A stretch of DNA of 64,000 bases from Diplonema papillatum. Taxonomy: Eukaryota; Euglenozoa; Diplonemea; Diplonemida; Diplonemidae. The notes beneath the pieces were generated by a model, which made no database searches, was not told where the DNA came from, and saw only the letters and a program-made list of their open reading frames with translations. The translations under genes and the position numbers were made by a program. Shown piece after piece: positions 4,535 through 55,900 of this stretch (positions within the stretch are counted from its first letter, which is position 1; every line of letters begins with the position of its first letter). Where the stretch lies: contig JAPJBO010000856.1 of NCBI GenBank assembly GCA_030068145.1, forward strand, positions 1 through 64,000. The letters run 5' to 3'.

Positions 4535-4669
4535 CTCGCGGGTCGCAGCTCGTACCCACCGCTCGTCGGCGAGGATAGTTACAGGTCCCCCCCCAACGAG
4601 CTTCCTTCCCGTCGTGTCGTAGCCGGCATGTCCGTGTTCCTCCCCCGCCCCGCCAAGGGGGCTCTGCCT

Positions 4670-6481: not shown

Positions 6482-6521
6482 GATGTTTTGTATATTTTAA
6501 TAATTTGATCTTCTTCCAGCC

Positions 6522-12787: not shown

Positions 12788-12890
12788 CTGCGAAAACGGG
12801 TGGTTGTTTCGGCGCGGGATGGCGGGGGAAAAGGTTGATTGTATTCTCTTTGAAGCAGCGCCGTCGCAAAAAGAATTACCCCGCGGTATA

Positions 12891-31603: not shown

Positions 31604-31644
<41 letters not shown>

Positions 31645-31656
31645 CTGCTGCTGTTG

Positions 31657-31711
<55 letters not shown>

Positions 31712-34700
31712 CCACGCGGGAGCACTTTCGGGCCCTTTTGACCCGACGTCCGCGGGGTGCGCACCTCGCCCGGGTCCGTGTCGTCGCAGCCGTCGGCGTC
31801 GAAGCGCGGACCGTGGCCCGGTGCCGCCCTGTCCTGCGAGAACTCGCGCTTGAGCCGCCGCAGCCGGTCACCGAGCGCCTCATGCCGGCGGTCGTTCTCG
31901 ACCCGCCGCAGCTCCGCCGCCCGCGCCCGCGCGCAGTGCGCCCGGAACGCCCGCTGGATGACGCGTGCACCGCCGTCGGCGGCCGACGACCGAACGACGG
32001 CTCCCCGCCCCGCGTAAGCGGCGCGCGGCGTGGCCTGCTTTTCGGCCCGCGTCTGGTTGTTGACGGACAGGTCGCCGGGGAACGGGGCGGGCGGTGGCGA
32101 GCTTCGCCGTTGCCCCACCGCCGGAACGCCAGCTTCGCGCCCCGCGTAAACGGCGCGTGGCGAGGCTGGTTTTCCGACCCGCGCCCGGTTGCCGACGGAT
32201 GGGTCGCCGGGGAAACGGTCGGGGGGTGGCGAGCTCCGCCTCCGGAAGCTGGTCCAGGCGCGCTGCACGGCGGCCGCCGCGGCGCCAGCCGCCTCGTCGG
32301 AGTCGCGGGCGGCGGCGGCGGCTAGCCGGCGCGCGCGGAGGAAACTCGCGACTCTGCGCGCCCGGCGGCAGCGGAAGCACCGCTGGAGGGTCGCCGCCGC
32401 GGCGTGCTGGGGGCCGAAGAGCAGGCCCCACGGGAGGCGCGAGCGGGCGAATGCTTGCACGACCTTGGCCATGCGCAGCCGCGCCGCGTGCACCTCCCGC
32501 CGGGCCGTGTATCCCAGGACGGCATCCCGGAGGGATCGGAAGGACGCACGGGAGAACTCCGCCTCCTCCTCGTCGTCGTGGACGGCGTTGAACAGCGCGA
32601 GGGCCCGCCAGGCTCGGTCGACCCGCTTTCGGGCGAGCCAGCCGCGGACCCACTTCTGGATGGCCAGCGCGGCGCGCTCTTCGAGGGCGCCGAACTCCCT
32701 GGAGTAGTACGCGGGGGACTTCTTCCGCGCAGCGGCGGCGTGGGCCTGCTCCTGCTCCGGGTACTTGGGCAGCTGGATGTAGGCCTCGGTACCCCGGCGG
32801 GCGCCGTGCCGCGACGGCAGCGGTGCGTCTTCATCGAACTCGTCGGAAGACGTCGACGCCTGCCGCAGGCGTGGTGACTCCGGGCCGCGCAGCGGTGCCG
32901 GCACCGCGCGCTGGACTCGCGGCGACTGCCGTGGCGTCTCGGCCGCGAAGCCGACGGTCGGCGCGCCGTCCCGCGTCGGGTGGCTCCTGGCCACCGCCGC
33001 CGGCGGGGCGCCTGTCCCCGGCTGCTGCTGCTGCTGCTGCCGGTCGGGTGCTGCCGCGGGGTCGCTGCGGCTCTCGTTTTCCGGGGGGTGCTGCTGCAGG
33101 TCTCCCTGGCCGGTCGTGCGCTCTTGCTGCCGCGCCAGCGTGCGGTCGCCCGCGCTTGCGGCTTGAGCCGCCGCCGGGCGGGCCTCGTCGGGGGCTGAAC
33201 TTTTCGGTTCGCCGTGGGCTTCCGTCCGCAAAGTGTGCAGATCGGGGGGGGCTGAACCTTTCGGTTCACTGTGAGCTTCCATCCGCGAAGTGCGCCCATC
33301 GGGGATCGAACCTTTCGGCTCTCCGTGGGCACCCATCCGCGAAATGTGCTGATCGGGGGGGACTGAACCTTTCGGCTCTCCGTGGGCTTCCATCCGCGAA
33401 GTGTGTTGATCGGGGGGGGCTGAACCTTTCGGTTCACCGTGGGCTTCCCGGGCTTCCGTCGGCGAAGTGTGCTCCGCGGGCCGAGCAGCACCTTTCGGCG
33501 CGCCGCGGGCGTCTGCGCGCAGCCGAATTGCTGTGCGGACCGCAGCAAGCCGGCGCCACCACGTCTGCAGGCGCACGGCCGCGGCCCGCCGCGCCGATAC
33601 CACGCGCAGCGCCCGCCGCGCCCCGGCGGCGCGGCCCGCTTTTTGGAGCACCACCGCGACGCCGCCGGCCTCCCTCGGGATCCCCCGGACCCTCCCACAC
33701 GCCTCGCCCCGCGCCGCCCTGCACTGCTGCCCGCCCGGCAGCGCCAGCTTCACGCCACGGTGGGCGGCCGCCGCACGCGCCCGGGAGGCAAGCCACGGGG
33801 ACACCCGCGGGGCCCCCCGGTCCCTGATCCATCCGGGAGCGCACGGCTTCAACAGCAGGACGGCGGCGGGGGAGAAGGCTGGGGGTGCTGGTGGGCCGGT
33901 CGGCGGGGGGGTGTCCCCGGTGGACCAGTGCCAGTGGAGGTCGAACGGGTTGCGGAGCTGCGTGGCGAGCGAGATGCGGGCGGCCTGCTCGCTGGTGAGC
34001 ACGGCGCCGCGGCCGCGGAGCTCGTCGGCCGCCGCCCGGCGGAGGGCGAGGTACCACCGGTACTGCGCGGCGACCCGAGCGCGGCCGAAGGCTTGGACGA
34101 CCAGGGCGAAGTAGACGCTCTTCCGCCGCTTCTTCTCGGCCCGCGCCGACGCGCCTTTCCAGGCGCTCTGCACCTTCGACGCGGCGGTCGCGGCGCTCGG
34201 GTCGTCCCACCCCTTCGGCTCCCACGCGCCGGGCGACGGGAACACAGGGGTGGTAGTCTCCCTACTTGCATCCTGCTGCTGCTGCTGCTGCTGTTGATGC
34301 GGTTGCTGCTGCTGCTGCTGTTGATGGGGTTGCTGCTGCTGCTGCTGCTGCTGTTGATGTGGTTGCTGCTGCTGCTGCTGCTGCTGCTGTTGTTGATGTG
34401 GCTCTTGTTGTCGCTCTTGCTGTTGGTGGTGGTGGCCTTCTTTTTCGGGCGGGTCCTGGTCCGTGCCCGGGTCGTCGCCCGGCCGCTTTTTGCGGGCGGA
34501 CCCCCGGCCGCGCTCCCTGTTGAGCTCCTCGCGCACGAGGCTCGTCAGCAGGTCGAGGCGGGCCATCTTGAGCACCCTCACGTTGTCCGCCGCGATGTAC
34601 CGCCGCCACGCCGCCTGGATCCGGCACGCGGCGCCGTCCCGGGCGCAAGGCAGCGCTTCCCGCGAGATAGACCGAGAAACGCTGATCTCCGGCACGGGCG

Positions 34701-37700
34701 GTTCCTCCCGAGGCATCCGGAGGATGTGGAGGCGGGCTCTGTACGCGAGTGCGGCGGACTGCAGGGTGCCGCGGGCCCGGGCGCGCCGCAGGCGCGCGGC
34801 GGCCAACCGGGCCCGGCAGCCCTGCGCCGCGGCCGCCAGCACGCGCTCCGCGACGATGCGGTGCAGCTGGTGCAGCTCCGCCTCGACGCAGAAGCTGTCC
34901 TCGGTCGCCAGCAGCGGGCGCTCGTCGACGGGCGAACCGCGCAGGCCGGCCGCTGCGGCGGCGGTCTCCGGGGGGGTGCCCGCGTGACCCACTTCCGGCG
35001 TCGCCGAGCCTGCCGCAGCGGTACCCTCCGTAGTGTCCGCACGGGCCGCTCCCGGCATTCCGGAGTCCGTGCCTGCTCCAGCTGCAGGTGCATTGTTCTC
35101 CGTAGTAGTATCCACATGGCCCGCTCCCTGCGTTTCCGAGCCCAGGCCAGCCGCTGCAGTTGCACTCTCCGTAGTGTCCGCACGGGCCGCTCCCGGCTTT
35201 CCGGAGTCCGTGCCTGCTCCACCTGCAGGTGCATTGTTCTCCGTAGTAGTATCCACATGGCACGCTCCCTGCGTTTCCGAGCCCAGGCCAGCCGCTGCAG
35301 TTGCATTCTGCGTTGTGTCTGCACGGGCCGCTCCCGGCTTTCCGGAGTCCGTGCCTGCTCCAGCTGCAGGTACATTGTTCTTCTCCATAGTGCTGTCCAC
35401 ACGGCCCGCTCCCGGCGGTGCAGAGTCTCGGGTTGCCGTGTGTTCGGCTTGTGGGCCCGCCTGCGGCTGTTGGCTCCCCAACGTCTCCGCGGGCGGGGTT
35501 TCCCCCTCGGGGGCCACTTCCACAGACGACACCCGGCTCACCCCGGCTATCGTGCCGAAGCTGGGCGCGTCGGTATGTGGCCTCGCCTGCAGCTGCTTGT
35601 TCCCAGGCCAAACTGCGGATGAGACCGCCTCTTCGGGTGTCACTTCCACCGACACCACCCGGCGTACGCCTGCAATCGCGCCGATCCCGTGCGCCGCGTG
35701 GTATGGCCTCACCCGAGGTTCGACGGCGGGGGCCGGCTTCTGCTCGGGCGCTCCGCTGGCCCCGAAAAGGCTGGTTCCAGCTTTTTCGGGCTTCTCGGCG
35801 GCGCCGTGCGTCTCCTCCTGGTGTGGGTGCCCCGAAAAAGCTCCGCCGGCCCCGAAAAGGCTGGCTCCAGCTTTTTCGGGCTTCGCGGCGGCGCCGTGCG
35901 TCTCCTCCCGGTGCGGCCGACGGCCGTGCCCCGAAGGATCTCCCGCGGAGCCCGCGGCCTTCTGCTTCTCGGTCGCCCCGCTTTCGGCGGCCGCCTCCCA
36001 CGCGCCGAAGCCGCTGCCGCCGCCCAACGACCCCCTGCGGCCGGCGTCGGACTCCGCGTGCGGCGAGAGCGAGTTGCCGGCCGCCGCCGGCCCCGCCGCA
36101 GGCGGGGGCGGCGGGTTGTCGAGGAGCCCGCGCTTGGCCGAGCTCTTCCGCGACGACTGCTCCGGCGAGTCGCCGGTCTCGCACACGACGATGGTCAGCG
36201 GGCGGCGGCGCCCGGCACGCGGGTCGAGCGAGAAGTCCGTCAGCGCCGCGGCCACGTCGATGATCGCCTCCGCGGGCGATTTTATGACGGACACGCTGTT
36301 CACCAGCCCGGCGTCCTCGTCGGTCGCCTCGTCCCCGTACGACGGCTCGCGGTCAACGGTCAACAGCCGCGAAGCCGAATCCGGAGTGCGCAGCAGCGAG
36401 TTTTTATGGCTGAACGACCCTGCCCAGGAGGTTGCCCGCGCAACGTGGAAGTCGGGTTGGGTGACGGTGATGGTGTGCTCCATCGTGTCGTGCAGGTTGC
36501 GCACCGCCGTCCGGGCGGCGTACCCCGCGAAGCAGCGGGAGACGGTGCCGGCGGCTGCGAGCGACCGCAGCGAGCACAGCCGCCGGCGCGCCGCGAAGCC
36601 GGCGCCGACCACGTGGAGCTCTGCCGCGGCCCGCCGCCGCCGGGCCAGCAACACCCGGGCTGCGTGCGCAGCCCCGCACGCCCGAAGCACCGCCCGCGCG
36701 GCGTGCGCCTTCGCGAGGTCCCGCCGTGCCGCCCAGCCGGCGCACGCCGCAGCGAGCGTCCTGCCGCAGGCCGCGCTCCGCGCGGCGGCCGCGTGCGCGC
36801 CGGCCGCAGCGCGGCCGTTCCATGCGGGGCGACTCGCCCGACGGACTGCCAGGGGGCGCTGGTTGGCGATCGACTCCGGCTTCGGCGTGTCGACCAGCCG
36901 GTCCGATCCGGCGTCCGACAGCTTCGACTCCGACGATCGGTGGCTCGACAGCGGCGGCGTGGGGGGCGTTTGCACTGCGTTCGACGAGCGAGGGAAGGCC
37001 AGAATATTCGCGGCGGTCTCAGCTTGCGCTGCCTCCGCCCTTTTGCCCTCGTTTTCTCCTTTTGCGGCTGCCGTCGGCGCTGCGTTCGATGAGCGAGGGA
37101 AGTCATGAATATTTGCGGCGGCCTCAGCCTGCGCGGCCTCCGACGACGACTCCTTGCCCTGGGAGTCCGAAGCAAGGCCAGCTTCCTCGGTCGGAGGCAG
37201 TGGATCTCCACTCTTGCAGGCAGACTGGGAGCCTTGCCGGGCTCCGTCCTCCGAGGTGCTGGGTAACACGCGACCTGAATCGCCTGCTGGCACCGCATGC
37301 TGCGCCGGCGCGTGGCCGTGTGCGGGATCACCGACGGCGTCCCACGACGAGTCCTTGCCCCACCGGGGGTCCGAAGCGAGGCCGGCGTCGGCGGAAGCCG
37401 AGGTGGCCTCTTCCGTTGCGGCTTGGGAGGTCGTGTTGACGCTGCCCGCTTGCTCCCGCGCCTCGTGCGGCTGGCGGGCGGCCGGCGCTGCTTCCGCCGT
37501 CGACGCACGGCTTCCGCTGCGGACGCTGTCGGCCCGTTGCCGCGCCGCTGGTGCTTCGGAGTTGAGGCAGCCGTTCGGTGCCGTGTTCGCGGACGAGGAG
37601 GCCGAGCCGCGCCGCGGCGGGCCGCCGCCGGCAGGACCGGTCGACGACTTTCGGGCCTGCGGGGCTGCTTCGGCGCTGTTGGATGGGAGGCGAGCGGCGG

Positions 37701-39516
37701 CAACCGGTGCGTTCGCGTCTTTGGACGATGCTGATGAGTTGCACCGCTGGGGAGCACCTGCAGAGCCGGAGGATGACTTTCGGGACACAGGGACACCTTC
37801 GGCGCTGGTGGACGGAACGCGAGCGGCAGCAACAGGTGGTGCATTCGCGTCTTTAGACGATGCTGAGTTGCCCCGCAGAAGAGCACCTGCAGAACCCGAG
37901 GATGACTTTCGGGACATAGGGGCGCTGGTGGATGCAACGCGGGCGGCAGCAACAGGTGTATTCGCGTCTTTAGACGATGCTGAGTTGCGCCGCGGGAGGG
38001 CACTCGCAGAACCCGAGGATGACTTTCGGGACACAGGGGCTCCTTTGGCGCTGGTGGATGGAACGCGGGCGGCAGCAACAGGTGTATTCGCGCCTTTGGA
38101 CGACACTGCTGAGTTGCGCCGCCCCGCAGAGCCCGAGGATGACTTTCGGGACACAGGGGCTCCTTCGGCGCTGGTGGACGGAACGCGAGCGGCAGCAACA
38201 GGTGTATTCGCGTCTTTAGACGATGCTGAGTTGCGCCGCAGAAGAGCACCTGCAGAGCCTGAGGATGACTTTCGGGACACAGGGGCTCCTTCGGCGCTGT
38301 TGGATGGAACGCGAGCGGCAGCAACAGGTGTATTCGCGCCTTTAGACGACACTACTGAGTCACGCCGCAGAAGGGCGCCTGCAGGACCGGAGGATGACTT
38401 TCGGGACACAGGGGCTCCTTCGGCGCTGTTGGATGGAACGCGAGCGGCAGCAACAGGTGTATTCGCGCCTTTAGACGACACTACTGAGTCACGCCGCAGA
38501 AGGGCGCCTGCAGGACCGGAGGATGACTTTCGGGACACAGGGGCTCCTTCGGCGCTGTTGGATGGAACGCGAGCGGCAGCAACAGGTGTATTCGCGCCTT
38601 TAGACGACACTACTGAGTTGCGCCGCAGAAGGGCACCTGCAGGACCGGAGGATGACTTTCGGGACACAGGGGCTCCTTCGGCGCTATTGGATGGAACGCG
38701 AGCGGCAGCAACAGGTGTATTCGCGCCTTTAGACGACACTACTGAATCACGCCGCAGAAGGGCGCCTGCAGGACCGGAGGATGACTTTCGGGCTTCTTCG
38801 GCGCTGCTGGATGCGGCAACAACAGGTGGCTTCGCATCTTTCGACGACACTGAGTCGCGCCGCAGAAGGGCACCTGCAGAACCCGAAGATGACTTTCCGG
38901 CCGCAGGGGCACCTTCGGCGCTGCTGGATGGGGCGCGAGAATGGGACGGATCCGCGGGGTTTTCAGCCACCGCGCCGCCCTCGGGGAGCACCGTTTCGGG
39001 GCTGGCGGCCTCTGCCTCCGACTCGGATCGCACGACGCCGGGGAAGCTGGGGATGCGCGGGATTTGCGGCGGGTGGTGGCCGTGAGGCTCCGGCGGAGCC
39101 GATGCTGTGCCTTCCTCCGAACAGCTTTCGACCCGGCGGATCTCGACGGAGCCGGCGCTAGAGCGGCGGCGGTGGAGGAGCGACTTGGCCGCGGCCGGCG
39201 CCTGCGCGCCGGCGCCGAGCAAAAAGCTGCTTTTCCGCGGGTTCGACAGGCCCGACACCCGCCGGACCACCGGCTCGGCGCCTTCGGCGGCCGCGGGCTC
39301 CCGGTCGGTCTCTCCGTCGGCGGAAGACCCGGTTGAATCGTCGAGCTTCGCCTCCGTGTCCGTAGAGTCGTCGGCGATCTCGAACGTCAGCGATTCATCG
39401 TCGTCACCATCCCCGCCGTTCTCCGCGTTCCCCGCGGCCCCTTCGCTCTCACCGGATCCCGTCGAGTCCAGGAAGAACAGCGGCAGACTCTCCCTGCTGT
39501 CATCGTCCTCCGTCAT
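29839..39516 (-). CDS. Giant IQ-motif (calmodulin-binding-type) protein with polyglutamine, 3,225 aa
   Basis: A single uninterrupted frame of 3,225 codons from ATG 39,516 to TAG 29,839. The acidic N-terminus (MTEDDDSRESLPLFFLD) is followed by a tandem array of about ten 43-residue repeats (about residues 205-620; core AEGAPVSRKSSSGPAGALLR). The RKSSSG core would be a basophilic kinase site by motif. Scattered IQ-like helices follow, among them AACRIQAAWRRYIAADNVR (~1630), VQSAWKGASARAEKKRR (~1780), AVRLQTWWRRLAAVRTA (~1985), ALAIQKWVRGWLARKRV (~2290), AAVQRAWTSFRRR (~2415) and VIQRAFRAHCARARA (~2520). Between them are three 47-residue repeats (~1370-1490), five ~20-residue EPKGS repeats (~2020-2110), Q/H tracts (~1705-1748), a ~46-residue polyglutamine (~2602-2648) and three LPRGSSLGAL repeats. 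I do not recognise an enzymatic or motor domain. A calmodulin-binding scaffold or cytoskeletal role is inference. Confidence 0.85.
31571..31710 (-). repeat. CAG/CTG trinucleotide run encoding polyglutamine
   Basis: About 46 consecutive Gln codons, mostly CAG with some CAA, inside the IQ protein. A second Q/H-rich set lies at 34,268-34,400. The CAA interruptions would limit slippage. Confidence 0.95.
37650..38910 (-). repeat. 129-bp coding minisatellite (43-aa repeat)
   Basis: Exact 129-bp steps are seen between 38,282, 38,411 and 38,540; other units are shortened by multiples of three so the frame is kept. It encodes the RKSSSG repeats of the IQ protein. Interior units are nearly identical at the DNA level. 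Confidence 0.95.
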
Positions 39517-40415
39517 CCCCAGCGGCAGGACAGCCCGGGGGGTCGGCGCGCACCGTCCGGGCGGGGCGCTACCCTGCTTCCTCGCCGGCTGCTCGGAATA
39601 TTTAGCGTGTTTTCCGTTTCTTTTTTTTGGTGTTTGTCCAATCCGACAGCAAGCGCGTGTCAGACGAGCCCGCCCGAAGGCAGTTGTGGTTTTCTTCAGG
39701 CGGGTCTTCTCTGCCGGCGGAAGTTGTTTGGGCCAGATCTCTTTTGTGGTTCCGACGATTCCGAAAGGGCGTACAGATTGTGTCTTTCGACTTTTTTGTC
39801 AACGTTTTCTTTATTTTTTCCCCTCTGTCTTTGTTTTTTTTTTTCCCCTGCAGAAGGATGTCGGATTGGAGCTATTGCGACTTGCGATACCGAAAATAGA
39901 ACCTCGTGTGAGAACAAGACCACAAAGAGAGCCTCGTCGTCGTCGTCACCATCCCCGCCGTTCTCCGCGTTCCCCGCGGCCCCTTCGCTCTCACCGGATC
40001 CCGTCGAGTCCAGGAAGAACAGCGGCAGACTCTCCCTGCTGTCGTCGTCCTCCGTCATCCCCAGCGGGAGGGCGGCCCGGGGGGGTCGGCGCGCACCGTC
40101 CGGGCGGGGCGCTCCCCTGCTTCCTCGCCGGCTGCTCGGAATATTTCGCGTGTTTTCCGTTTCTTTTTTTTGGTGTTTGTCCGATCCGACGACAGCAAGC
40201 GCGTGTCAGACTAGCCCACCCGAAGGCAGTTGTGGTTTTCTTCAGGCGGGTCTTCTCTGCCGGCGGAAGTTGTTTGGGCCAGATCTCTTTTGTGGTTCCG
40301 ACGATTCCGAATGGGCGTACAGATTGTGTCTTTCAACTTTTTTGCCAACGTCTTCTTTATTTTTCCCCCTCTGTCTCTTTTTTTTTTTTTTTTTTTTTTT
40401 TTCCCTGCAGAAGAA
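39400..40415. repeat. Tandem duplication of the 5' end of the IQ gene
   Basis: 39,400-39,857 and 39,941-40,415 are direct copies (about 540 bp apart), each holding the first ~35 codons, the ATG (39,516; duplicate at 40,058) and ~340 bp of upstream DNA up to a CTGCAGAAG. In the outer copy the frame from the duplicate ATG reads the same MTEDDDSRESLPLFF start, then diverges and does not join the gene. Confidence 0.92.
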
Positions 40416-41539: not shown

Positions 41540-42062
41540 ATCGCAAAACAGTTTTCCGTGAAAGAAATTTCCGCCGGTGGTTTCTGCTATGAGAAGATTT
41601 TTTCCATCAGGTTTCTGCCACGAGAAATTTCCACCGATGGGTTCCGTTCGAAAACATTTCCACCAACAATTTCTGTTAGAAAAGTTTTCCGCCAAGCTTC
41701 CCGTGAAAGAAATTTCCGCCGGTGGTTTCTGCCATGCGAAAATTTCCATCAGTTTTCTGTCGTGAGAAAATTTCCACCACCAGTTTCCCACGAAAGAAAT
41801 TTCCGCCAGTAGTTTTCACGAGAACATTTCCATCATCGGTTTCCGCCACGACAAAATTTCCATCAGTTTTCTGTCGTGAGAAAAATTTCCACCAACAGTC
41901 GTTTCCACGAGAACATTTCCATCAGGTTTCCGCCACGAGAGAAATTTCCGCCAGATTTCCGCCACGAGAAAATTCCCATCATTTTTCTGTCGCAGAGAAA
42001 ATTTCCACCAACAGTATTCCACAAAGGAAATTTCCGCCAGTAGTTTCCACGAGAAAATTTCC
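41540..42062. repeat. Degenerate ~30-36-bp tandem array, left part
   Basis: Repeats of GAAATTTCCGCCGGTGGTTT / GAGAAAATTTCCATCAGTTT / TTCTGTCGTGAGAAAATTTCC. The same array resumes at 47,503, so it was split by insertion of the Penelope-like element. Confidence 0.88.
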
Positions 42063-45000
42063 AACGTTATTTGTGGATTAGAAGGTCGGTATTTTAAAGT
42101 CTCCGGTTGACCGTAGAAAGAGTGCGACTCGTTTCGGGTGTTGTGTCACTCCGTTGTGAAACCTTGTGAAGTCCCCTAACGCGTTTAGAGGGTGCTTGGG
42201 TTTGGGTAGGGTGTGGTCGTTCTGCTGCGGCGTGAAAAGCCAGGAAGTTTCGACGCTAATCTTCGACTCTTGATTAAGTTCACCGGGTTGCGTGCTCGTC
42301 AGGAAGATCCCGGTGCCTGGCTTTTCTTCTGGGTGGTTTCGTGTTGATCGGCGGCTGTGTGTTACGAGGCACGGATTAGGGGATGAAAAAAGGAAAAAGA
42401 AATGGGGGAGAAAAAGAAGGGGGGGAGAGGGGGAGAGGGGAAGTTGGGGTTTTGAGGGTTGTCCTCGGGGTACGGGGGGGGGTGGTTGGAGGGTTTGAGT
42501 GACAGAGGTTACGCTTGCGCTGTTCGCATGAAGGCTCGTTGGCTCGAAGAAGTGGAAGTAGCGTAGGTTATTGTTCGATGTTATTCTTACAGTCGTAAGA
42601 TGTGATAAAAAAATTTATTTTAAAAAAACCTTATTTGACTGTTTGTTGTCCTCCACAGTCGGGGTTCTCTAGCTGCACGAGGCAGCCGTGGATGATGAAA
42701 TTAAGTTCCTCGCTTACTTTGCTTATTCTTTTTCGTAGCCTTGAGCGTGTGCGATACCGCTGGGTTTCTCTTGCATTTTGAGATATGGTGGCGTAGACTT
42801 TTGAAGCGCGCTTTCCCTGCGGTCCGTCCGTCGTTGTTGCAGTATGGGCATTTGCGTTTTCCGAGGGCTTTCTGTGCCGCCTTTCGTACTGGGCTTGTTG
42901 CTAGAGTCATCTCTTTGCAGTGAAGCATGTGTGTACGGAGGCCTTTGGCGCCTTTGAACTTGTTGCCTGCGTCCGTGGTAGTTGCTTTGCAGGCTGGGCA
43001 TGCCCAAATCAGCGTTCCTTCATGCTGTGTTGTTTCTTCGGATGAGGTCTCGTCGTCTGAGGTAGGGGTGTCCCCTCGCAATTCTTCGAGCAGTTCGAGT
43101 GTTTGTGTAGGGTCTGTGTCGGTGGTGTCTTCTTTCGTGTACAGGAACATGTACGTGGCGTTGTCTGTGTACGTAGGTTCCCGGGAGTGTGAGGTGGTTT
43201 CGTTGTTGTAATGTGTCCAGTTTTGGTCTGTGAAAGGGGTGCGGTTACGTTTGTGGATGGTGTAGTGGCCGGCGTTCTCTCTTCCTGTGTGTGTTATAAC
43301 GGCTTGGAGTTCGTATTTGTGTTCGTGGTCCGGAATGTTGAGGGTGGGATCAGCTGCCACCGGGGTTCGATTTTCGTTTGCGAACTCGTTCCGTCTAAGA
43401 CACAGTAGTAATGTGTCTTGTGCTGCTCGGATACTGGTTTGCGTTTCTGCTGTCTTTGTCTTTTTGCACTTGTCACATCTGTAATCTTTGGGGGTGCTTT
43501 TCTTGCAGAAACTGTCCAGACATCCTTGAGCGGTGCTGGCCTGTATTGCGAGGATTGTCATGCTGTAGGGTTGATCTTCTGTTTTGATGTAGCCGCAGTT
43601 GTTGCAATGGATTGTTGTCGTCTGTAGGTGTAATAATTCGTTGAAGGCGTCGCTGCAGTTTGGTTGGCACGTGCGGTGTTCTTCGTTTTCGTTCGCTATC
43701 GCAGCGAGTAGTTGAAGTAAGGCTTCTTCTAGGTCGTGTTGTTCTCCGTCGCCGAGGTGTGTGTCCATGTGCTCGAAGAGCCTTTGGACGACGTTTTGGG
43801 TTTTCCTGCCGCTTATCCATTCGTTCACGTCTTGTGTGCATGGGCCTGTTTGGTGTTGTGGACAGTCGGTGTACTTGCGTATTTGATTTGACAAGTGTGT
43901 CGCTGCTATGAGGTTTAGCGACGCTTGCAGGAAGCAAGAGTTTCTTGTCGTGTATTTGCGAAGTTGCTGTGGGTGTTTCCGCTTCGTTTTGGCTGCTACT
44001 GCTGCGGCGATGGTGATGGTTGCAACGAGGCTGGCTACTCGTTCCGTGACGGTTAATTCGGGTGTGGGTTGTGATGGAGAGTCAACGGAGGATGGTGATT
44101 CGCTCGGTAAGTGGGCTGGGAAGAAGTTGGTTGGCCTGTGTTTGCCGGCGTACTCCGGTTCGTTGATGCGTGGTTGGCGTTTTTTGTGCCGGGCTACGCA
44201 GAATCCAAGGAACGGCTTGAGCTGGCTGTGGAGTCGTGGCAGGTTGCCGAATTCCTCTGTGAGCCATGCGTTCCAGGGTGCGTATAGTACCCGTGGGTTG
44301 TGACCTCTGTCGATCATGGCATATACGCTCCTCTGTATTTCTACACGCAGGTCTTGTAGGTGGTTCGTTTGTCGGATTGCTCGTATCAGCGAGCCCTTGA
44401 AAATCCCGCTCGCTTGCGCCTTGGGAGCCGTTGTTAAATGGTGGGTATAGCGGGTCCCGTAGTTTTTCGGTTGTATTGTGAGGCGGATGTGCGGTGCGTG
44501 GGGAGGATCCGGACGTTCGACGCGTATCCGGACTCCGAGAAATACTACGTCGTCGTGTGCTGTAGTTGTGTTTTTGTACCGCATGTTGTAAAGGTGCTGC
44601 GGTGGTGGTGTGGTCCCGAAGTTGAGGAAGTCGTCGATGAAGCGGTAGGTGTGTGCGTGTGCCTTCGCTTCTTCGATCTTTCCTTCATCTACGAGGCTGT
44701 CTACGTATGCTTTCTCGATCCGATAGCAGAAAAGGTTTGCTATATCCGAGCTAGCATTACCGCCCATAGGTATGCCGTCGGTCTGCCTGAGTACTTGATC
44801 GCCTTGTGCTATGTAGCTGTTACCGATAATGATTGCAAGTAGTTCTTTGACTGCTTCTCTGGAGTATGCGCGCTTCGTGTCGTTCGTCTGCCGGCTGAAG
44901 GTGAAGGTTTTCTTGCCTTTCTGTTTCGCTCCACGTGTTAGGTTAGGGTTGCCGTTCTGTTCTTCGAATTCGAAAGCTTCTTCGATCGCTTCGCATACTT

Positions 45001-47502
45001 CTTCCACTATCTTGTCCTGAGGTAGCCTTGTGTACATGTCCTCGAAGTCGTGTGTAGTTGGGATTTTGTATCGGAGGCGGGTGAGGTTCTGCTTTATGTG
45101 CAGGGTGATGTCGTCTGGTCCTTCTGTAAACCATACACGTTTGATTCCTGTACGGCGGAAGTTGAGTTCGTCTTTTCGTTTGAGGGCTTTCATCACGCTT
45201 TTCAATAGGCCTGATAGTTCGAGGTGGGCATTTGTGAGGGTTGCTTTGGGTGCCTCGCGTTTTGTGTTGCGGTGCTTTTTGTTTTTTTCTGCGGCGACAC
45301 CGGCTATCCAACGGAAAGATGGTTCTGCTTTGTGTAATTTTATGGAGCCGTAGAGGTGTGGTAGTCCCTTGTGGAACGGTAGGTCGAGCTCTGCCATTAT
45401 ACGTTTGTGGTTGCTCTCTACTTCTGTTTTTGTGATCGTTTGTTTCTCGTATGTTTCGTTTGCGTCGAGTTGTTGCCGTAGCGCGTGTGTGTATTGGGCT
45501 TTGCAACAGTATCCAAAATCGTGCGTTGTTTTGTCTACTGGTAAGATGACCAGGTGTTGTTTAATGACAGCTAGTTCGGCTGTGGCCTTTGTATTCAATT
45601 TCTCGTCGTCTGAAGGTGGTAGAGCCGCCATTCTTCGTGATATTTCGGCTTTGAGCTCCGTTTCGAATGAGGTTGTGTCACTGCCTGCGGGGTAGTATGT
45701 CTGTACGTACTCCTCTATTGCCTCGTGTAGCGTTTCGGTCAGAGCGTGGTGGCTCTGGTAGCATCTGTACTTTCTGCCTCTGCTGACGATTTCCGAAAGC
45801 CCGTTTTCTTTCGTAATTGCTGAGAGGAAGCCTATGGCGTGGCCGTTGATCGTTTTTCCGGAGTTGTATCTGTGACATGCGCAGTGCTCTGGTTTAGGGA
45901 GTGGTATGTCAGGCAGTTCCTTGCTGATCTGTGTTACGTTTTGTAGCCTAAGATAGAGTGGGGGGTTCAGTCGGAAAGAGATTTTGGTGCGCTGTAGTAT
46001 CTCTTCTTTTGGGCAAGCGCGTTTAATCGCCGGTTGTTGTAGGATGTCGTGTAAACGTAGTGAGTTGATGTGTTCACTGCCGTGTGTGATTATGAGCCTT
46101 GCTGGTGCTCCGTCGTCTTTTATTACTTTGTTGAGTGTTATCTCCCCGAGTCGATCTTTTAGGCTTTTTTCGAGTGCTGTGACGGTAGGTGGCAAATTGG
46201 TGCGAGGTGCGTGTGCGATTAGCCAGTTAAGAAGCCGCTTGATCCGTGTGCGTCCCATAAGGTCGAAGTTGTAGCCGGTGAGGTCTTTGTCGCTGAGGTT
46301 TACCAGGTGGTGTAGTTGGCTCCTGATTGAGAATGCTCGTGCTTCGGTAGTGAGGTTGATCCGCAGTTTTCCGTCTTCCAACCATGCCCACTTTTCGACT
46401 TTTGGTGCGTTTTTCGTTCGTTCGTGGCGTTGATTGGAACGTTTTCTGCTTTTCCTGGGGCGTGTAGTGGCGTTTCTGATATGTCGTTGGACGTTGTATG
46501 TGGGTTGGAAGTGTGAAATCCACCAGTTCTCTCTCGGAAGTGCCTGTCTCCGGAATTCGTCGTTTGTGGCGTGCTCGTTGATTGGAACTTTCTCGAGCGG
46601 TGTCGCGTAGAGGGGAAAGTCCCGTTTCAGAAGAGCTTTGGCGATGGGTGTGTTGTTGCGGCGTTGATACCAGTGGGATTTCAGACGATCCTCAGCGGTA
46701 CCTTTGGTTTGCCCGACGTATTTGACGTTTCCGCGTTCGTCTATAAGGGCGTAGACTACTCCTTGGTCGGAGTGTGCTGGTTTGTCGGTCTGCTGGTTCT
46801 TCCATCCCTTGTGTAGCTGCTTGTGTTGTTTGGTGAAGAACACGACCTGCGCTTCTCGTCGTTTGGTGTCATACGCGGCCCAGAACTGTTTCCCGTAATT
46901 GTATTTCGCTTTAGTGCGAAAGCATGTGAGGAACGGGTTTCGCTTAAATTCTGGACGGTCTGCTTCTTTTGGGTCGATGGCGTTCTGTTTGAGCTTGTAC
47001 TTCAAGTGTGTGTCGTTGAGGTGGGTGACTGGTCGGGGGTTCTCTTGTGTTGGTGTGCTGTGTTGTGTGGTCCGTACGTCTTGTGGTGGTTTGAATGTGA
47101 GGTTTTGGTGTAGTTTGTTCGGTTGTGATGTATAAGGTTGGTGTGAAGGGAGTACGAGTGTATTCAGTGTTGGTGGTGGATGTCGGAGACCGTATTGTGT
47201 GGGTGGGAGTAGGAATGTCGTAGTGGGTCGTGTGTTAGTTAGTTTCGGAGGTGTGTGGAGGGTTGGGGGAGGTATAGTTCGGAGTGTGATGGTCGGCACT
47301 GCTGGAGGGAGTGCGGATTGTTGTGGGTAGCGTCGATGGATGTCGGGTGTTGGGTAGTCGATGTGTGGTTGGTGTCGTGGCTTGTACGTTTCGTTGAGGA
47401 TGGAGGTGGGACGTCTCATCGTGGCAGGGGTGGGAGACCCGTAGTACGGCATGTGTGGCCGTGGGATGTTTGGGATGCGTTCGGTGTATGAGACGTCTTT
47501 CC
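42063..47502 (-). mobile_element. Penelope-like retroelement with N-terminal GIY-YIG and a USP domain
   Basis: About 5.44 kb inserted in a repeat array. The right (5') and left (3') boundaries are set by where the array stops and resumes; AAAATTTCC flanks both sides (42,054-42,062 and 47,503-47,511) and may be a target duplication, although the array itself contains that word. The minus-strand 3' end reads AATCCACAAATAACG; a truncated copy of the same 3' end is at 59,779-59,986. One long ORF occupies most of the element. The N-terminal position of GIY-YIG is, from memory, the order reported for the Naiad/Chlamys branch of Penelope-like elements. Confidence 0.85.
42701..47452 (-). CDS. GIY-YIG nuclease - reverse transcriptase - USP deubiquitinase polyprotein
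   Basis: 1,583 residues, ATG 47,452. Residues 1-150 are Pro/Thr-rich. GIY-YIG nuclease: GVVYALI (231-237), KYVGQT (244-249), Arg256, Glu308 in ENWWISHF, Asn319. A CxCH motif (524-527) with GHAIG precedes the RT. RT: LPHLYGSIKLHKAEPSFRW (697-715), HDFEDMYTRLP with Asp802, QTDGIPMGGNASSDIANLFC (890-909), YRFIDDFLNFG with Asp940/941, VVFLGVRI. USP: Cys box NSCFLQASLN (Cys1173), zinc ribbon CNNC (1283/1286) and CDKC (1326/1329), His box GRENAGHYTIHKR (His1396), then NWTHYNNET supplying the acidic/amide residue (Asn1416 or 1417). C-terminal fingers: CPAC...H..HC (1485-1512) and CPYC...HH...C (1535-1560). All catalytic residues I can check are present. The fusion to a USP is unusual; ubiquitin cleavage is inferred from motifs. 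Confidence 0.9.
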   Translation of the reverse strand: MPYYGSPTPATMRRPTSILNETYKPRHQPHIDYPTPDIHRRYPQQSALPPAVPTITLRTIPPPTLHTPPKLTNTRPTTTFLLPPTQYGLRHPPPTLNTLVLPSHQPYTSQPNKLHQNLTFKPPQDVRTTQHSTPTQENPRPVTHLNDTHLKYKLKQNAIDPKEADRPEFKRNPFLTCFRTKAKYNYGKQFWAAYDTKRREAQVVFFTKQHKQLHKGWKNQQTDKPAHSDQGVVYALIDERGNVKYVGQTKGTAEDRLKSHWYQRRNNTPIAKALLKRDFPLYATPLEKVPINEHATNDEFRRQALPRENWWISHFQPTYNVQRHIRNATTRPRKSRKRSNQRHERTKNAPKVEKWAWLEDGKLRINLTTEARAFSIRSQLHHLVNLSDKDLTGYNFDLMGRTRIKRLLNWLIAHAPRTNLPPTVTALEKSLKDRLGEITLNKVIKDDGAPARLIITHGSEHINSLRLHDILQQPAIKRACPKEEILQRTKISFRLNPPLYLRLQNVTQISKELPDIPLPKPEHCACHRYNSGKTINGHAIGFLSAITKENGLSEIVSRGRKYRCYQSHHALTETLHEAIEEYVQTYYPAGSDTTSFETELKAEISRRMAALPPSDDEKLNTKATAELAVIKQHLVILPVDKTTHDFGYCCKAQYTHALRQQLDANETYEKQTITKTEVESNHKRIMAELDLPFHKGLPHLYGSIKLHKAEPSFRWIAGVAAEKNKKHRNTKREAPKATLTNAHLELSGLLKSVMKALKRKDELNFRRTGIKRVWFTEGPDDITLHIKQNLTRLRYKIPTTHDFEDMYTRLPQDKIVEEVCEAIEEAFEFEEQNGNPNLTRGAKQKGKKTFTFSRQTNDTKRAYSREAVKELLAIIIGNSYIAQGDQVLRQTDGIPMGGNASSDIANLFCYRIEKAYVDSLVDEGKIEEAKAHAHTYRFIDDFLNFGTTPPPQHLYNMRYKNTTTAHDDVVFLGVRIRVERPDPPHAPHIRLTIQPKNYGTRYTHHLTTAPKAQASGIFKGSLIRAIRQTNHLQDLRVEIQRSVYAMIDRGHNPRVLYAPWNAWLTEEFGNLPRLHSQLKPFLGFCVARHKKRQPRINEPEYAGKHRPTNFFPAHLPSESPSSVDSPSQPTPELTVTERVASLVATITIAAAVAAKTKRKHPQQLRKYTTRNSCFLQASLNLIAATHLSNQIRKYTDCPQHQTGPCTQDVNEWISGRKTQNVVQRLFEHMDTHLGDGEQHDLEEALLQLLAAIANENEEHRTCQPNCSDAFNELLHLQTTTIHCNNCGYIKTEDQPYSMTILAIQASTAQGCLDSFCKKSTPKDYRCDKCKKTKTAETQTSIRAAQDTLLLCLRRNEFANENRTPVAADPTLNIPDHEHKYELQAVITHTGRENAGHYTIHKRNRTPFTDQNWTHYNNETTSHSREPTYTDNATYMFLYTKEDTTDTDPTQTLELLEELRGDTPTSDDETSSEETTQHEGTLIWACPACKATTTDAGNKFKGAKGLRTHMLHCKEMTLATSPVRKAAQKALGKRKCPYCNNDGRTAGKARFKSLRHHISKCKRNPAVSHTLKATKKNKQSKRGT

Positions 47503-50424: not shown

Positions 50425-52130
50425 TAAAAGCCCACTTAGAGATCCGGGGTTTATAGTCCCCGGGTGATCTTTGTCGTAAGGATTCCTTTGAGGTATCGAA
50501 TATTAATTGCTGCGGTAGTGGCGCTACGTGTGTTTGTGCGTGTGGATTTGTTGTCTGTTGCCGACTATTCGACTTATTTTAGAGCGCGCTCGGGATACCT
50601 GACTGGAAGCGACATTGCAATACGTTCCAGCCTGAGTTTTTGAGCCCGCGCCACCCCCCGACAAAGCGGGTACGCCACACAATAACGCGTGCGAATGTCA
50701 ACCCAAAAAAAAAGAAGCGGGCTTGTATTCCGGGTTTGGTGCCAGCTTCTCTCAGGCTTGGCTTCCAGCCTAGGACATTTAGGAGCATCACAGACCTGCT
50801 ATTGGTTCGCTCTTCCGCGCGCTATAAGTCGCGCGCAGTCCCCTTAAGAAGTAGTGCGCGTCTCGGGTAAGCAGCAAGCCGCCGATGCCAAAAGACACCC
50901 CCTACAACGACACGCCCACCTATTTAAGGGTCGAGATCTCGTTCGTTAACGGAATCTACCCGACAAATCACTCCACCAACCAGGAGCGGCCATGCACCAC
51001 CACACAATTCATCGAGAAAGAGCTGTGGGGCCATGTTCACTGCAGCAACCCCACGGCTACTAAGGTGGTCTCCAGAGGAAGCCAGTGGAAAAGAAATGTT
51101 TTTTTCAAGTGCCAGAATGACCTGGAATCCGCACTTTCGTAAAGGTTTTGTCCCACAGTTTTTTCAGGGCGATTTTGACCCTTCCCAGAGCCCGTGGCGA
51201 TTCTCGACGTAGTTACGATGGACGGCCGGCAATGGGAGCGCCTGGCTTGCTCCGCCTCCGACGACAGAGTCCGAGTGTTTTTCGGCGCCTCCCTATTTTT
51301 TTTACCCCAGGTTATTAGCTTCGTTTTTGCCTTGGTTTCCCGACCAACTTTCTTTTGCCGCTCTGAGATCGAGAAAGCTTTTCTTCAGGGGGGGCCGGGG
51401 GGGCTTTGCCCCCCGGCGAACGGTACGGTACAGGTGGAGAAAGTTTGCACTTCTTAATCTGTTTGTCACAATAAACACTGCACATTCCTGGCAACAGCCC
51501 ATTTCACGTTCAACCACCACTCGACACTACGAGTAGACGCAGACCAGAGATCACATGGAACAAGGCACTTGTGTCGACTCGGAGAGAATCTGCCAAGAAA
51601 TCCGGGGCTGCTTCTGATCCTCGACTCTCCTTCTCGGCTCCAGCCCCCGTGGCAGCCCCAGACTTCTGCCCGCCAGCCCACTAGACCGTGATGCAGTGCT
51701 TTGGCTACACGATACCACCAACGGGAAAAAGGTGAGGAATTCCTCATGAGGAATTCCTCACCCTCTTTTTCGAGCCTCTTTTTTTTGAGGAATTCCTCGC
51801 ACTTTTTAGCTAGCGGGAGCACTGTGACCAGCCTGGCCCAGGGCCTTATATATATAAAGTCCTCCCACGTAACTGTCCGTAAGTTGCTCGGAGTTACTAA
51901 AAATCCCAGTTGCGGCACGTGCAGGTGGGTTTTGCTCATGGTGGCGCCAAACTGCAAGAATTGCCATAGCCGCTTTGTAGTCCACCGAGACTGTAGGAAA
52001 TTTGATGCGAGTCAACTGTATTTGTGTAACCGGTACTGCAGTACTGCTCGTGTGGTACATTGTAGTAATGTAGTACTACTGGCCCCTCATCAAGTTGTGC
52101 CTTTTTTTTTTTTTTTTTCCTTGCTCGGAG
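50425..52130. other. No gene recognised; perfect 32-bp palindrome at 51,731-51,762
   Basis: A diverged repeat F piece lies at 50,441-50,480. At 51,731 two TGAGGAATTCCTCA words abut to make a perfect palindrome, with a third GAGGAATTCCTC at 51,787. A plus frame at 50,885-51,142 (85 codons from ATG) has no recognisable motif. A TATATATAAAG word lies at about 51,848. Confidence 0.5.
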
Positions 52131-52983
52131 CAGGGTATTAGTTTGAAGGCTTCCGGGGTTTGCAGATTTAGACCGTTACTATGGGGTGGTTTTGGGCGAT
52201 GTTTCGGTGCCGTTTTCGCCGATGTACGGCGGTGCCGACACATCTCCACAACTTCGTTCGGCAAAAGAGGGGTCTTCATGGGTCCTTTATAGGTCAATTA
52301 TGGTCACCCCGTCGGTTTGGCGACACATTTTGCGGGCGTTTTTTCAACGTACACCAGCCTGGATCAAGCTTTTCGAGGTTTTCCGAATGCTTCTGGGTTC
52401 CCTGTGGGGTTGGGTGCCAAATGGGGACGCGCTTCAAAAACAGTCAAAATCGTAAACAGACGTCTCGTCAGGCAGCTGAAGGGGGGCGACCTGGGGACCT
52501 ATTTTCCTATGATTCCTATGATAATAGGTCCACGGTTTTGGTGTACACCGCCGTGCTTACAACAACATTTCTAGCGTTATTTTTAGCAACATCGCGCCGA
52601 AGGCGCGACGGCAAATTTGGGCAAAAATAACTCCGCCCCCCCTTTATCATGTGTGGGCAACTCTTAGCTCGTGTGGGATACTCAACTGTCAAACAGGACC
52701 TTGGCCCGGTAATGAAGCACAGTGGCTGCCGACCCGAAGCTGAACACAATTGAACGGCAGCGGCTGGGTCTCAGCAGCGGAGGCTCAGCAGCCTTCCAGC
52801 ACCTTCAGCACACTGCTAAAACACCACACCCCCCGCCTATATTTACTTTGACCACCGTTTTCTAGAGTTATAGTTCGCTTGAGAATCCTTTTTGAACTTT
52901 TTTTTTTTTTTTTTTTTCCCGGCCAAGTCCGGTTTGCAGATTTAGACCGTCGGTCTAAATCTGCAACGGAAACTAATCCCCTG
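52131..52983 (+). repeat. ~0.8-kb dispersed element, copy B
   Basis: Second copy of 47,753-48,547, without the T insertion but with an extra segment that includes GCCGACACATCTCCACAACT. A short F-type fragment (AGAGTTATAGTTCGCTTGAG) interrupts it at 52,861-52,888. Its right end runs directly into the 52-bp satellite. Confidence 0.9.
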
Positions 52984-55900
52984 GCTCGGAGTCATGACTT
53001 GAGGTGCGCAAAAGACCCCCCTGTATTATCCTATGGCTCGGAGTCATGACTTGAGCTGCGCAAAAGAACCCCCTGTATTATCCTATGGCTCGGAGTCATG
53101 ACTTGAGGTGCGCAAAAGACCCCCCTGTATTATCCTATGGCTCGGAGTCATGACTTGAGGTGCGCAAAAGACCCCCCTGTATTATCCTATGGCTCGGAGT
53201 CATGACTTGAGGTGCGCAAAAGACCCCCCTGTATTATCCTATGGCTCGGAGTCATGACTTGAGGTGCGCAAAAGACCCCCCTGTATTATCCTATGGCTCG
53301 GAGTCATGACTTGAGGTGCGCAAAAGACCCCCCTGTATTATCCTATGGCTCGGAGTCATGACTTGAGGTGCGCAAAAGACCCCCCTGTATTATCCTATGG
53401 CTCGGAGTCATGACTTGAGGTGCGCAAAAGACCCCCCTGTATTATCCTATGGCTCGGAGTCATGACTTGAGGTGCGCAAAAGACCCCCCTGTATTATCCT
53501 ATGGCTCGGAGTCATGACTTGAGGTGCGCAAAAGACCCCCTGTATTATCCTATGGCTCGGAGTCATGACTTGAGGTGCGCAAAAGACCCCCCTGTATTAT
53601 CCTATGGCTCGGAGTCATGACTTGAGGTGCGCAAAAGACCCCCCTGTATTATCCTATGGCTCGGAGTCATGACTTGAGGTGCGCAAAAGACCCCCCTGTA
53701 TTATCCTATGGCTCGGAGTCATGACTTGAGGTGCGCAAAAGACCCCCCTGTATTATCCTATGGCTCGGAGTCATGACTTGAGGTGCGCAAAAGACCCCCC
53801 TGTATTATCCTATGGCTCGGAGTCATGACTTGAGGTGCGCAAAAGACCCCCCTGTATTATCCTATGGCTCGGAGTCATGACTTGAGGTGCGCAAAAGACC
53901 CCCCTGTATTATCCTATGGCTCGGAGTCATGACTTGAGGTGCGCAAAAGACCCCCCTGTATTATCCTATGGCTCGGAGTCATGACTTGAGGTGCGCAAAA
54001 GACCCCCCTGTATTATCCTATGGCTCGGAGTCATGACTTGAGGTGCGCAAAAGACCCCCCTGTATTATCCTATGGCTCGGAGTCATGACTTGAGGTGCGC
54101 AAAAGACCCCCCTGTATTATCCTATGGCTCGGAGTCATGACTTGAGGTGCGCAAAAGACCCCCCTGTATTATCCTATGGCTCGGAGTCATGACTTGAGGT
54201 GCGCAAAAGACCCCCCTGTATTATCCTATGGCTCGGAGTCATGACTTGAGGTGCGCAAAAGACCCCCCTGTATTATCCTATGGCTCGGAGTCATGACTTG
54301 AGGTGCGCAAAAGACCCCCCTGTATTATCCTATGGCTCGGAGTCATGACTTGAGGTGCGCAAAAGACCCCCCTGTATTATCCTATGGCTCGGAGTCATGA
54401 CTTGAGGTGCGCAAAAGACCCCCCTGTATTATCCTATGGCTCGGAGTCATGACTTGAGGTGCGCAAAAGACCCCCCTGTATTATCCTATGGCTCGGAGTC
54501 ATGACTTGAGGTGCGCAAAAGACCCCCCTGTATTATCCTATGGCTCGGAGTCATGACTTGAGGTGCGCAAAAGACCCCCCTGTATTATCCTATGGCTCGG
54601 AGTCATGACTTGAGGTGCGCAAAAGACCCCCCTGTATTATCCTATGGCTCGGAGTCATGACTTGAGGTGCGCAAAAGACCCCCCTGTATTATCCTATGGC
54701 TCGGAGTCATGACTTGAGGTGCGCAAAAGACCCCCCTGTATTATCCTATGGCTCGGAGTCATGACTTGAGGTGCGCAAAAGACCCCCCTGTATTATCCTA
54801 TGGCTCGGAGTCATGACTTGAGGTGCGCAAAAGACCCCCCTGTATTATCCTATGGCTCGGAGTCATGACTTGAGGTGCGCAAAAGACCCCCCTGTATTAT
54901 CCTATGGCTCGGAGTCATGACTTGAGGTGCGCAAAAGACCCCCCTGTATTATCCTATGGCTCGGAGTCATGACTTGAGGTGCGCAAAAGACCCCCCTGTA
55001 TTATCCTATGGCTCGGAGTCATGACTTGAGGTGCGCAAAAGACCCCCCTGTATTATCCTATGGCTCGGAGTCATGACTTGAGGTGCGCAAAAGACCCCCC
55101 TGTATTATCCTATGGCTCGGAGTCATGACTTGAGGTGCGCAAAAGACCCCCCTGTATTATCCTATGGCTCGGAGTCATGACTTGAGGTGCGCAAAAGACC
55201 CCCCTGTATTATCCTATGGCTCGGAGTCATGACTTGAGGTGCGCAAAAGACCCCCCTGTATTATCCTATGGCTCGGAGTCATGACTTGAGGTGCGCAAAA
55301 GACCCCCCTGTATTATCCTATGGCTCGGAGTCATGACTTGAGGTGCGCAAAAGACCCCCCTGTATTATCCTATGGCTCGGAGTCATGACTTGAGGTGCGC
55401 AAAAGACCCCCCTGTATTATCCTATGGCTCGGAGTCATGACTTGAGGTGCGCAAAAGACCCCCCTGTATTATCCTATGGCTCGGAGTCATGACTTGAGGT
55501 GCGCAAAAGACCCCCCTGTATTATCCTATGGCTCGGAGTCATGACTTGAGGTGCGCAAAAGACCCCCCTGTATTATCCTATGGCTCGGAGTCATGACTTG
55601 AGGTGCGCAAAAGACCCCCCTGTATTATCCTATGGCTCGGAGTCATGACTTGAGGTGCGCAAAAGACCCCCCTGTATTATCCTATGGCTCGGAGTCATGA
55701 CTTGAGGTGCGCAAAAGACCCCCCTGTATTATCCTATGGCTCGGAGTCATGACTTGAGGTGCGCAAAAGACCCCCCTGTATTATCCTATGGCTCGGAGTC
55801 ATGACTTGAGGTGCGCAAAAGACCCCCCTGTATTATCCTATGGCTCGGAGTCATGACTTGAGGTGCGCAAAAGACCCCCCTGTATTATCCTATGGCTCGG

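Follow-up and report, generated by a model that had tools for sequence, protein, structure and literature searches.

A window of 64,000 nucleotides from the marine diplonemid Diplonema papillatum (GCA_030068145.1, contig JAPJBO010000856.1, positions 1 to 64,000) contains a copy of a retrotransposon in which a ubiquitin-specific protease (USP; peptidase family C19) shares one open reading frame (ORF) with a GIY-YIG endonuclease (EN) and a reverse transcriptase (RT). We tentatively propose that this is a Penelope-like element (PLE) of the N-terminal-endonuclease type that has acquired a deubiquitinase, predicted to strip ubiquitin from the element's own ribonucleoprotein (RNP) or from nearby host proteins. 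The sequence-based part of this proposal comprises the domains, the recent copies with a common 3' end and pseudo-long terminal repeats (pseudo-LTRs), the constraint on the protein, and the conservation of residues, with Cys, His and Asn or Asp present in the USPs of the window family and of three related families, A, B, and D.

Domains and copies of the element

The frame runs on the minus strand from an ATG at 47452 to a stop at 42701 and encodes 1583 amino acids (1603 from stop to stop, reaching 47512), compared with a longest frame of 365 amino acids on either strand in 500 dinucleotide shuffles of the 42701-47452 stretch. Pfam matches are found to GIY-YIG (PF01541) at residues 231–320 (E 3.4e-6, above the curated cut-off) and to UCH (PF00443) at residues 1169–1438 (E 3.2e-14; score 53.6 bits, cut-off 23.9). 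RVT_1 gives only 0.064 on the window protein, under its cut-off, and the RT call is based on PLE-type motifs, relatives and a partly confident structural model. The domain order in the single frame is GIY-YIG, a CxC region, Penelope-type RT, a linker, USP and two CCHC fingers. An initial annotation, made from the letters and their ORFs, had described a fusion of GIY-YIG nuclease, RT and USP at 42701..47452, and this is borne out by the minus-strand frame, the two Pfam matches and the RT motifs. The motifs that it named are present as written: NSCFLQASLN (containing Cys1173), two CxxC pairs, AGHYTIHKR (His1396) and the NNE of HYNNE (Asn1416). The features of the window copy are as follows.

42065..47497, minus strand: 5'-truncated PLE copy, with junctions placed by comparison with other copies
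42701..47452, minus strand: ORF of 1583 amino acids, the C-terminal 72% of the 2210-amino-acid open frame of complete copies
46493..46762, minus strand: GIY-YIG endonuclease, residues 231–320 (GVVYALID...KYVGQT), Pfam PF01541
45875..45883, minus strand: CxC motif C524-A-C526 between endonuclease and RT, both Cys invariant in a six-protein alignment that includes the window protein
44249..45655, minus strand: Penelope/telomerase-type RT, approximately residues 600–1068, by homology to P0003, P0004, P0005, P0009 and P0011 and a model similar to telomerase
44630..44635, minus strand: RT catalytic Asp-Asp (IDD, residues 940–941)
43139..43948, minus strand: USP (peptidase C19), residues 1169–1438, by Pfam PF00443 and matches to USPs in the PDB
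43934..43936, minus strand: predicted catalytic Cys1173, invariant in the window, A and B families
43466..43606, minus strand: USP fingers region with two CxxC pairs (1283/1286 and 1326/1329)
43265..43267, minus strand: predicted catalytic His1396
43205..43207, minus strand: Asn1416, predicted to complete the catalytic residues (families A and B have Asp here)
42773..43000, minus strand: two CCHC-type zinc fingers, residues 1485–1512 and 1535–1560
41601..42062, plus strand: minisatellite (AAATTTCCACCAG-like units), the host site of the window copy

The assignment of the protease to family C19 is supported by significant profile matches. Cys1173, His1396 and Asn1416 align with Cys, His and Asp, respectively, in families A and B, whose own matches to PF00443 have E-values of 5.7e-23 and 1.3e-20 respectively, and a profile of three USPs (window, A and B) matches the solved structure of USP36 in the PDB with an E-value of 4.5e-23, as well as USP12, USP14, USP46 and others. 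The element USP is like host USPs (USP36, USP12, USP15) in its motifs and PDB matches; it differs from them in sitting within a retroelement, and it stands far from the eight USP genes of this genome that score best. One CCHC finger is also present in P0003 (family A), in P0004 (family B) and in a relative without a USP, P0009.

All six aligned proteins share, without variation, the CxC cysteines as well as the GIPMG and Asp-Asp motifs; CxC was not found in P0017 of Chara with the pattern tried. A model of the EN-RT part, built from six sequences, has a mean pLDDT of 44, with values of 70–90 in the best RT blocks. When this was searched with Foldseek, ranks 1–8 in the PDB were all telomerases (best E 3.3e-5, five at or below 0.001, with a TM score of only 0.26). 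A sequence profile of the same part retrieved no telomerase from PDB sequences, and its single match (E 0.24) is meaningless.

Searching the genome assembly (271 Mb in 2910 contigs) with the full window protein, we scored 30 of 2625 candidates, and the number of places is therefore a lower bound. The protein is found in at least 31 places, of which 18 span all 1583 residues without a stop and at a rounded 100% identity. At 13 of the 31 the match is enclosed by an open frame of 2210 amino acids, from which it follows that the window copy is 5'-truncated. The 627 N-terminal residues that lie upstream of the window ATG have, from their own first ATG on, a high content of Thr, Pro, Ser and Tyr, and they contain imperfect repeats (for example TYEPQPY).

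A 14-nt 3' terminus located 674–677 nt past the stop codon is shared by 24 of the 30 loci fetched, with 21 distinct flanks beyond it; three pairs of loci have the same first 14 nt of flank, and could represent haplotypes, duplications or insertions into a repeat. The common end is absent from the fetched DNA at the other six loci, namely the window copy, in which the final bases and one internal stretch of the 3' region of other copies are missing, and five others. Positions 2–4 past the 3' end are A in 16, 19 and 18 of the 21 flanks, such that these copies are flanked by A-rich DNA, whereas the window copy lies in a minisatellite whose motif is found on both sides of it, past the 5' junction at 47497 and resuming after the 3' end at 42065.

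Nine copies were extended upstream. Four are 5'-truncated, and five have a repeat of the 3' end ahead of the body, a pseudo-LTR arrangement of a kind described for Penelope-like elements in the available text of two papers (PMC3846280, PMC11167929). L017, an element of 9,529 bp, has two repeats that do not differ from each other over 585 nt. The start of the repeat can be aligned to within a few bases in L016, L017, L018 and L006, although that of L018 runs further, and the repeat of L012 is shortened. No clear target-site duplications were seen by eye in the nine copies or the window copy; short stretches on either side match each other in L017 and in the window copy, but these lie within repeats. 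There is also no Rfam match at gathering thresholds, including to hammerhead ribozymes, in L017, L033 and L041, the three loci of one copy. The shared exact 3' end, the pseudo-LTRs and the telomerase-like RT model indicate that the element is a retrotransposon. The initial annotation had named two findings that would refute it, a lack of a significant C19 match and a chimeric assembly. The matches to PF00443 and USP36 answer the first; the second is rejected, as copies, many of them full-length, sit on separate contigs and have distinct flanks, and the fusion recurs in further families.

Spread and constraint of the ubiquitin protease

Family A (P0002/P0003) and the window protein share 31% identity over an alignment of 1013 columns, 22–26% in the USP, and the same domain order, and family B (P0004) is 67–68% identical to family A. 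In both, GIY-YIG is N-terminal to the RT in one frame. Family D, which was read over the USP only, has the Cys box, the His box and FDD intact. An intact USP is at the same place in families A, B and D and, as judged from these sequences, the fusion is old and has been kept. The family A protein (from L053) is a 100% match over the queried residues to a deposited 'putative ubiquitin carboxyl-terminal hydrolase 16 [Diplonema papillatum]', and the D. papillatum proteins with this name (clusters P0003 and P0004) are retroelement proteins. A further deposited protein, P0008 ('Ribosomal RNA-processing protein 12 [Diplonema papillatum]'), has a first half corresponding to the USP-PLE polyprotein (EN and partial RT) and a second half that is RRP12-like, and reflects either an error in joining the gene model or insertion into the gene.

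The fusion was surveyed with several queries. In a Pfam scan of the genome for USPs, 149 of 935 candidates were scored: 113 have the 774–801-nt spans that are typical of the element families (by length only), the eight best resemble ordinary USP genes, and the other 28 fall outside the typical spans. With the window USP as query (130 of 833 candidates scored), 75 places have at least 85% identity, three have 58–73%, and 52 have 37–41% and represent further families; at 57 of the 130 the queried stretch is complete, at least 95% identical and free of stops. With a 131-residue piece of the RT (150 of 487 candidates scored), we looked for a USP among these scored places up to 1,500 nt downstream. 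One is present at 50 of 51 RT places in the window family (RT identity of at least 95%) and at 10 of 11 in a sister family (84–89%), positioned 384–1122 nt downstream in these two families; the corresponding numbers are three of five at 64–65% identity and 23 of 42 at 61–63%. The RT places at 52–56% identity represent additional PLE families, whose open frames reach 1417–1513 amino acids and which have no scored USP; they could provide a USP-less outgroup for dating the acquisition. Three RT matches on contig C510 follow one another at a constant spacing of exactly 5,726 nt and may form a head-to-tail array.

A query with P0009 (42 of 10058 candidates scored) recovered 29 RT places with a scored USP 283, 331 or 343 nt downstream. 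Among the other 13, a Cys-box pattern is located 286 nt downstream at C4, C94 and C257, and at C94 (family D) an intact USP was confirmed by reading. Because none of these three was scored, the scoring limit evidently hides USPs. The DNA pattern of the Cys box occurs at 185 places in the whole genome, some of which lie outside these elements, compared with four for a reversed control. A first search found no homologues of the EN-RT part of the window protein at E 0.001, and a profile search added only fragments of proteins already recovered and two distant matches, P0017 and P0018. In the gene model P0018 (Paratrimastix pyriformis PAPYR_7907) a Josephin-like stretch (Pfam E 0.087 only) precedes an apparent GIY-YIG and the beginning of an RT of PLE type, and this is possibly another protease-PLE fusion. 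P0004 has no match among viral contigs.

In a tree of genome loci to which parts of an animal USP35 (P0012) and a plant sequence (P0013) were added, the three element USPs join in 74% of bootstrap trees, with long branches and support of only 78/83; the stem branch to the A and B USPs is itself long, at 2.66. A single origin of the element USPs is favoured, more by their shared position between RT and fingers than by the tree. Values of dN/dS for the USP (Nei-Gojobori) are 0.24 at a dS of 0.08 for two close family B members (B and C17), 0.115 for A and B (dS 2.6, saturated), 0.124 for A and C17, also saturated, and 0.32 for the A/C598 pair, from four differences only. Between A and B the RT is 78.9% identical, the USP 59.6% and the neighbouring linker 27.6%. 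These ratios and identities indicate that the USP is constrained, less so than the RT, and by the same estimates it is under purifying selection in families A and B.

The window family presents a different picture. Compared with the sister family, it has 84–89% identity in the RT piece and only 40–41% in the USP, which accelerated change, a relaxation of constraint or a swap of the module would each account for. Among the 18 copies with a complete ORF, residues 1160–1450 show four differences from L011 (H1165R, N1195T and G1230D in several copies, T1443P in one), all of which change the amino acid and none of which is synonymous, although these numbers are tiny. Cys1173, His1396 and Asn1416 do not vary.

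Possible roles of the ubiquitin protease

By analogy with its relatives, the GIY-YIG domain of the element would nick A-rich DNA and the RT would copy the element RNA at the nick. The USP, acting in cis on the same polypeptide, might then deubiquitinate the element's own protein or RNP, or could act on host proteins that it meets, such as restriction factors, histones, and repair proteins at the break. In either case the RNP would survive long enough for insertion, and elements of this kind may control their own ubiquitin tagging or destruction by the cell. Nicking of AT-rich DNA by GIY-YIG, with reverse transcription from the nick, is described for relatives in the available text of PMC11167929. 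Ubiquitin-dependent limits on retrotransposition, and the countermeasures of an element, could be tested in one protein with a single Cys change.

A more doubtful extension of the proposal is that diplonemid PLEs are engaged in a deubiquitinase arms race, with the USP as a fast-changing, host-facing module that diverges or is exchanged far faster than the copying machinery; the contrast between RT and USP identities in the window and sister families would be its trace. If so, a eukaryotic retrotransposon is fought by ubiquitin-dependent restriction, and is answering it.

Several observations weigh against an active and necessary deubiquitinase. The stretch up to the catalytic Cys reads GLPNLGNTC in families A, B and D and RKYTTRNSC in the window family, such that the oxyanion-hole position, which in USP7 lies five residues ahead of the Cys, is Asn in A, B and D and Thr in the window family. 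This Thr may lower the activity of the window-family USP; we take loss of the Asn to bear on activity and not on membership of the USP family. The window-family USP also has the longest end branch of the USP tree (3.51), and its AlphaFold model has a pLDDT of 36, too poor for use. No scored USP accompanies 41 of the 150 RT places, those 52–56% identical, nor 21 of the 47 at 61–65%, and these misses may be scoring limits or true absence. P0005, the one sequence read of the seven from D. papillatum that it represents, has EN, RT and the end of the finger, with the USP missing from just past the Cys box up to where the zinc finger ends, and P0009 (an ENA record) is a relative with RT and finger and without a USP, although its gene model may be incomplete. 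The USP was accordingly gained on or lost from related elements, and since P0005 keeps EN and RT without most of the USP, USP-less copies may be mobilised, possibly in trans.

A somewhat unlikely variant of the proposal, in which the same enzyme has a different substrate, is that the USP acts on chromatin or repair, deubiquitinating histones or repair factors at the GIY-YIG break so as to open the site or steer its repair. Retention of the USP in one polyprotein with the nuclease is consistent with this, although no Pfam match to a nucleosome-binding module is present in the element proteins searched. There are precedents in the available text of one paper, in which repair activation is proposed for the OTU and Ulp1 domains of the Ginger1 transposase (Bao et al. 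2010, PMC2836005) and a Trichomonas transposase fused to a peptidase C19 is reported (PMC2836005).

We consider it unlikely that the window-family USP is a non-catalytic or weakly active module that binds ubiquitin and is kept for tethering. The lost oxyanion Asn, the very long branch, the low USP identity to the sister family and the four non-synonymous differences can all be read in this way, but the three predicted catalytic residues are constant in the 18 complete-ORF copies, and the 57 places with whole, stop-free USPs also argue against it. Less credible still is that the USP is a neutral passenger, or that the fusion is an assembly error or a host gene captured in one copy. P0005 shows that a USP can be lost, and P0003 and P0004 were deposited under a host-like name; however, there are many copies on different contigs with different flanks, several diverged families and purifying selection, and the assembly-error part is largely refuted already. 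Self-processing, the less likely of the two functions that the initial annotation had suggested, is very improbable: the USP lies inside a long polyprotein between RT and zinc fingers and might cut it as aspartic proteases do in LTR elements, but USPs require folded ubiquitin as a substrate, there is no LRGG- or RGG-like ubiquitin C-terminus as a self-cleavage site in P0001, P0003 and P0004, and Pfam identifies no ubiquitin-like domain, in searches that covered all but the first 627 residues of the 2210-residue frame.

Neighbouring features and comparison with known elements

Elsewhere in the window, fragments of 18S and 28S rRNA genes are located at 50776-51056 and 62337-62462 (both minus strand); about 3600 scattered 28S pieces are reported in the available text of the D. 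papillatum genome paper (PMC10161547). An unbroken frame of 3319 amino acids at 29839-39798 (minus strand) encodes an IQ-motif protein; it has long runs of Gln and includes a 129-nt tandem repeat. An imperfect inverted repeat of about 1.6 kb, with arms that are 88–95% complementary, lies at 19730-21307 and is perhaps a foldback element, and there are very uniform tandem arrays of 52 nt x 103 (52982-58345) and 33 nt x 45 (12890-14373).

The assignment of the window element as Penelope-like, of the N-terminal-endonuclease type with pseudo-LTRs, is supported. PLEs of this type have a CxC motif between EN and RT, are without a canonical hammerhead ribozyme and have an insertion bias toward microsatellites, and other extra domains occur in their clade. 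We take this clade to consist of Naiad and Chlamys, and presumably the window element belongs with them; such a clade of N-terminal-endonuclease PLEs was reportedly described by Craig et al. in 2021. The window element is like Naiad and Chlamys in having GIY-YIG ahead of the RT, an intervening CxC, a telomerase-like RT and pseudo-LTRs or partial tandems, and the lack of a hammerhead ribozyme above the Rfam threshold is a further likeness. It is unlike them in its C-terminal CCHC fingers, its very long T/P/S/Y-rich N-terminus, its diplonemid host and its USP after the RT, a domain that is not known to us from that clade. The window element extends the range of domains carried by retrotransposons to a USP.

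Canonical Penelope and Poseidon elements, as described in the available text of PMC3846280 and PMC11167929, share with the window element a single ORF with RT and GIY-YIG, pseudo-LTRs, 5' truncation and an AT-rich target. Their nuclease is C-terminal, and that of the window element N-terminal; no protease domain is mentioned in that text, and PMC3846280 nowhere uses the word 'protease' in its main text. The statement in the initial annotation that no PLE had been described with a USP agrees with the open-licence literature, in which we found none, although most subscription papers lie outside it and this is no proof. The main text of the D. papillatum genome paper (PMC10161547) contains neither 'Penelope' nor 'ubiquitin'.

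A second retroelement, of LINE type, is present in the same window (2-4669, minus strand, with 4670-6496, minus strand). The N-terminal domain of its ORF2 is an OTU cysteine protease (PF02338, E 1.7e-9), after which come an AP-type endonuclease and an RT. Deubiquitinase-type domains thus occur within 64 kb in two retroelements that are unrelated to each other. In the available text of three papers, OTU and Ulp1 domains are described in Ginger1, Helitron and Mutator transposons, and Ulp1 in NeSL/Utopia LINEs (PMC2836005, PMC4640811, PMC6431247). Ginger1 (OTU/Ulp1), Helitrons (OTU), Utopia/NeSL (Ulp1) and the Trichomonas C19 transposase differ from the window element in having OTU or Ulp1 folds or a DNA transposase, and none is described there as a PLE; all nevertheless combine, as here, a mobile-element enzyme with a cysteine protease that removes ubiquitin or SUMO (PMC2836005, PMC4640811, PMC6431247).

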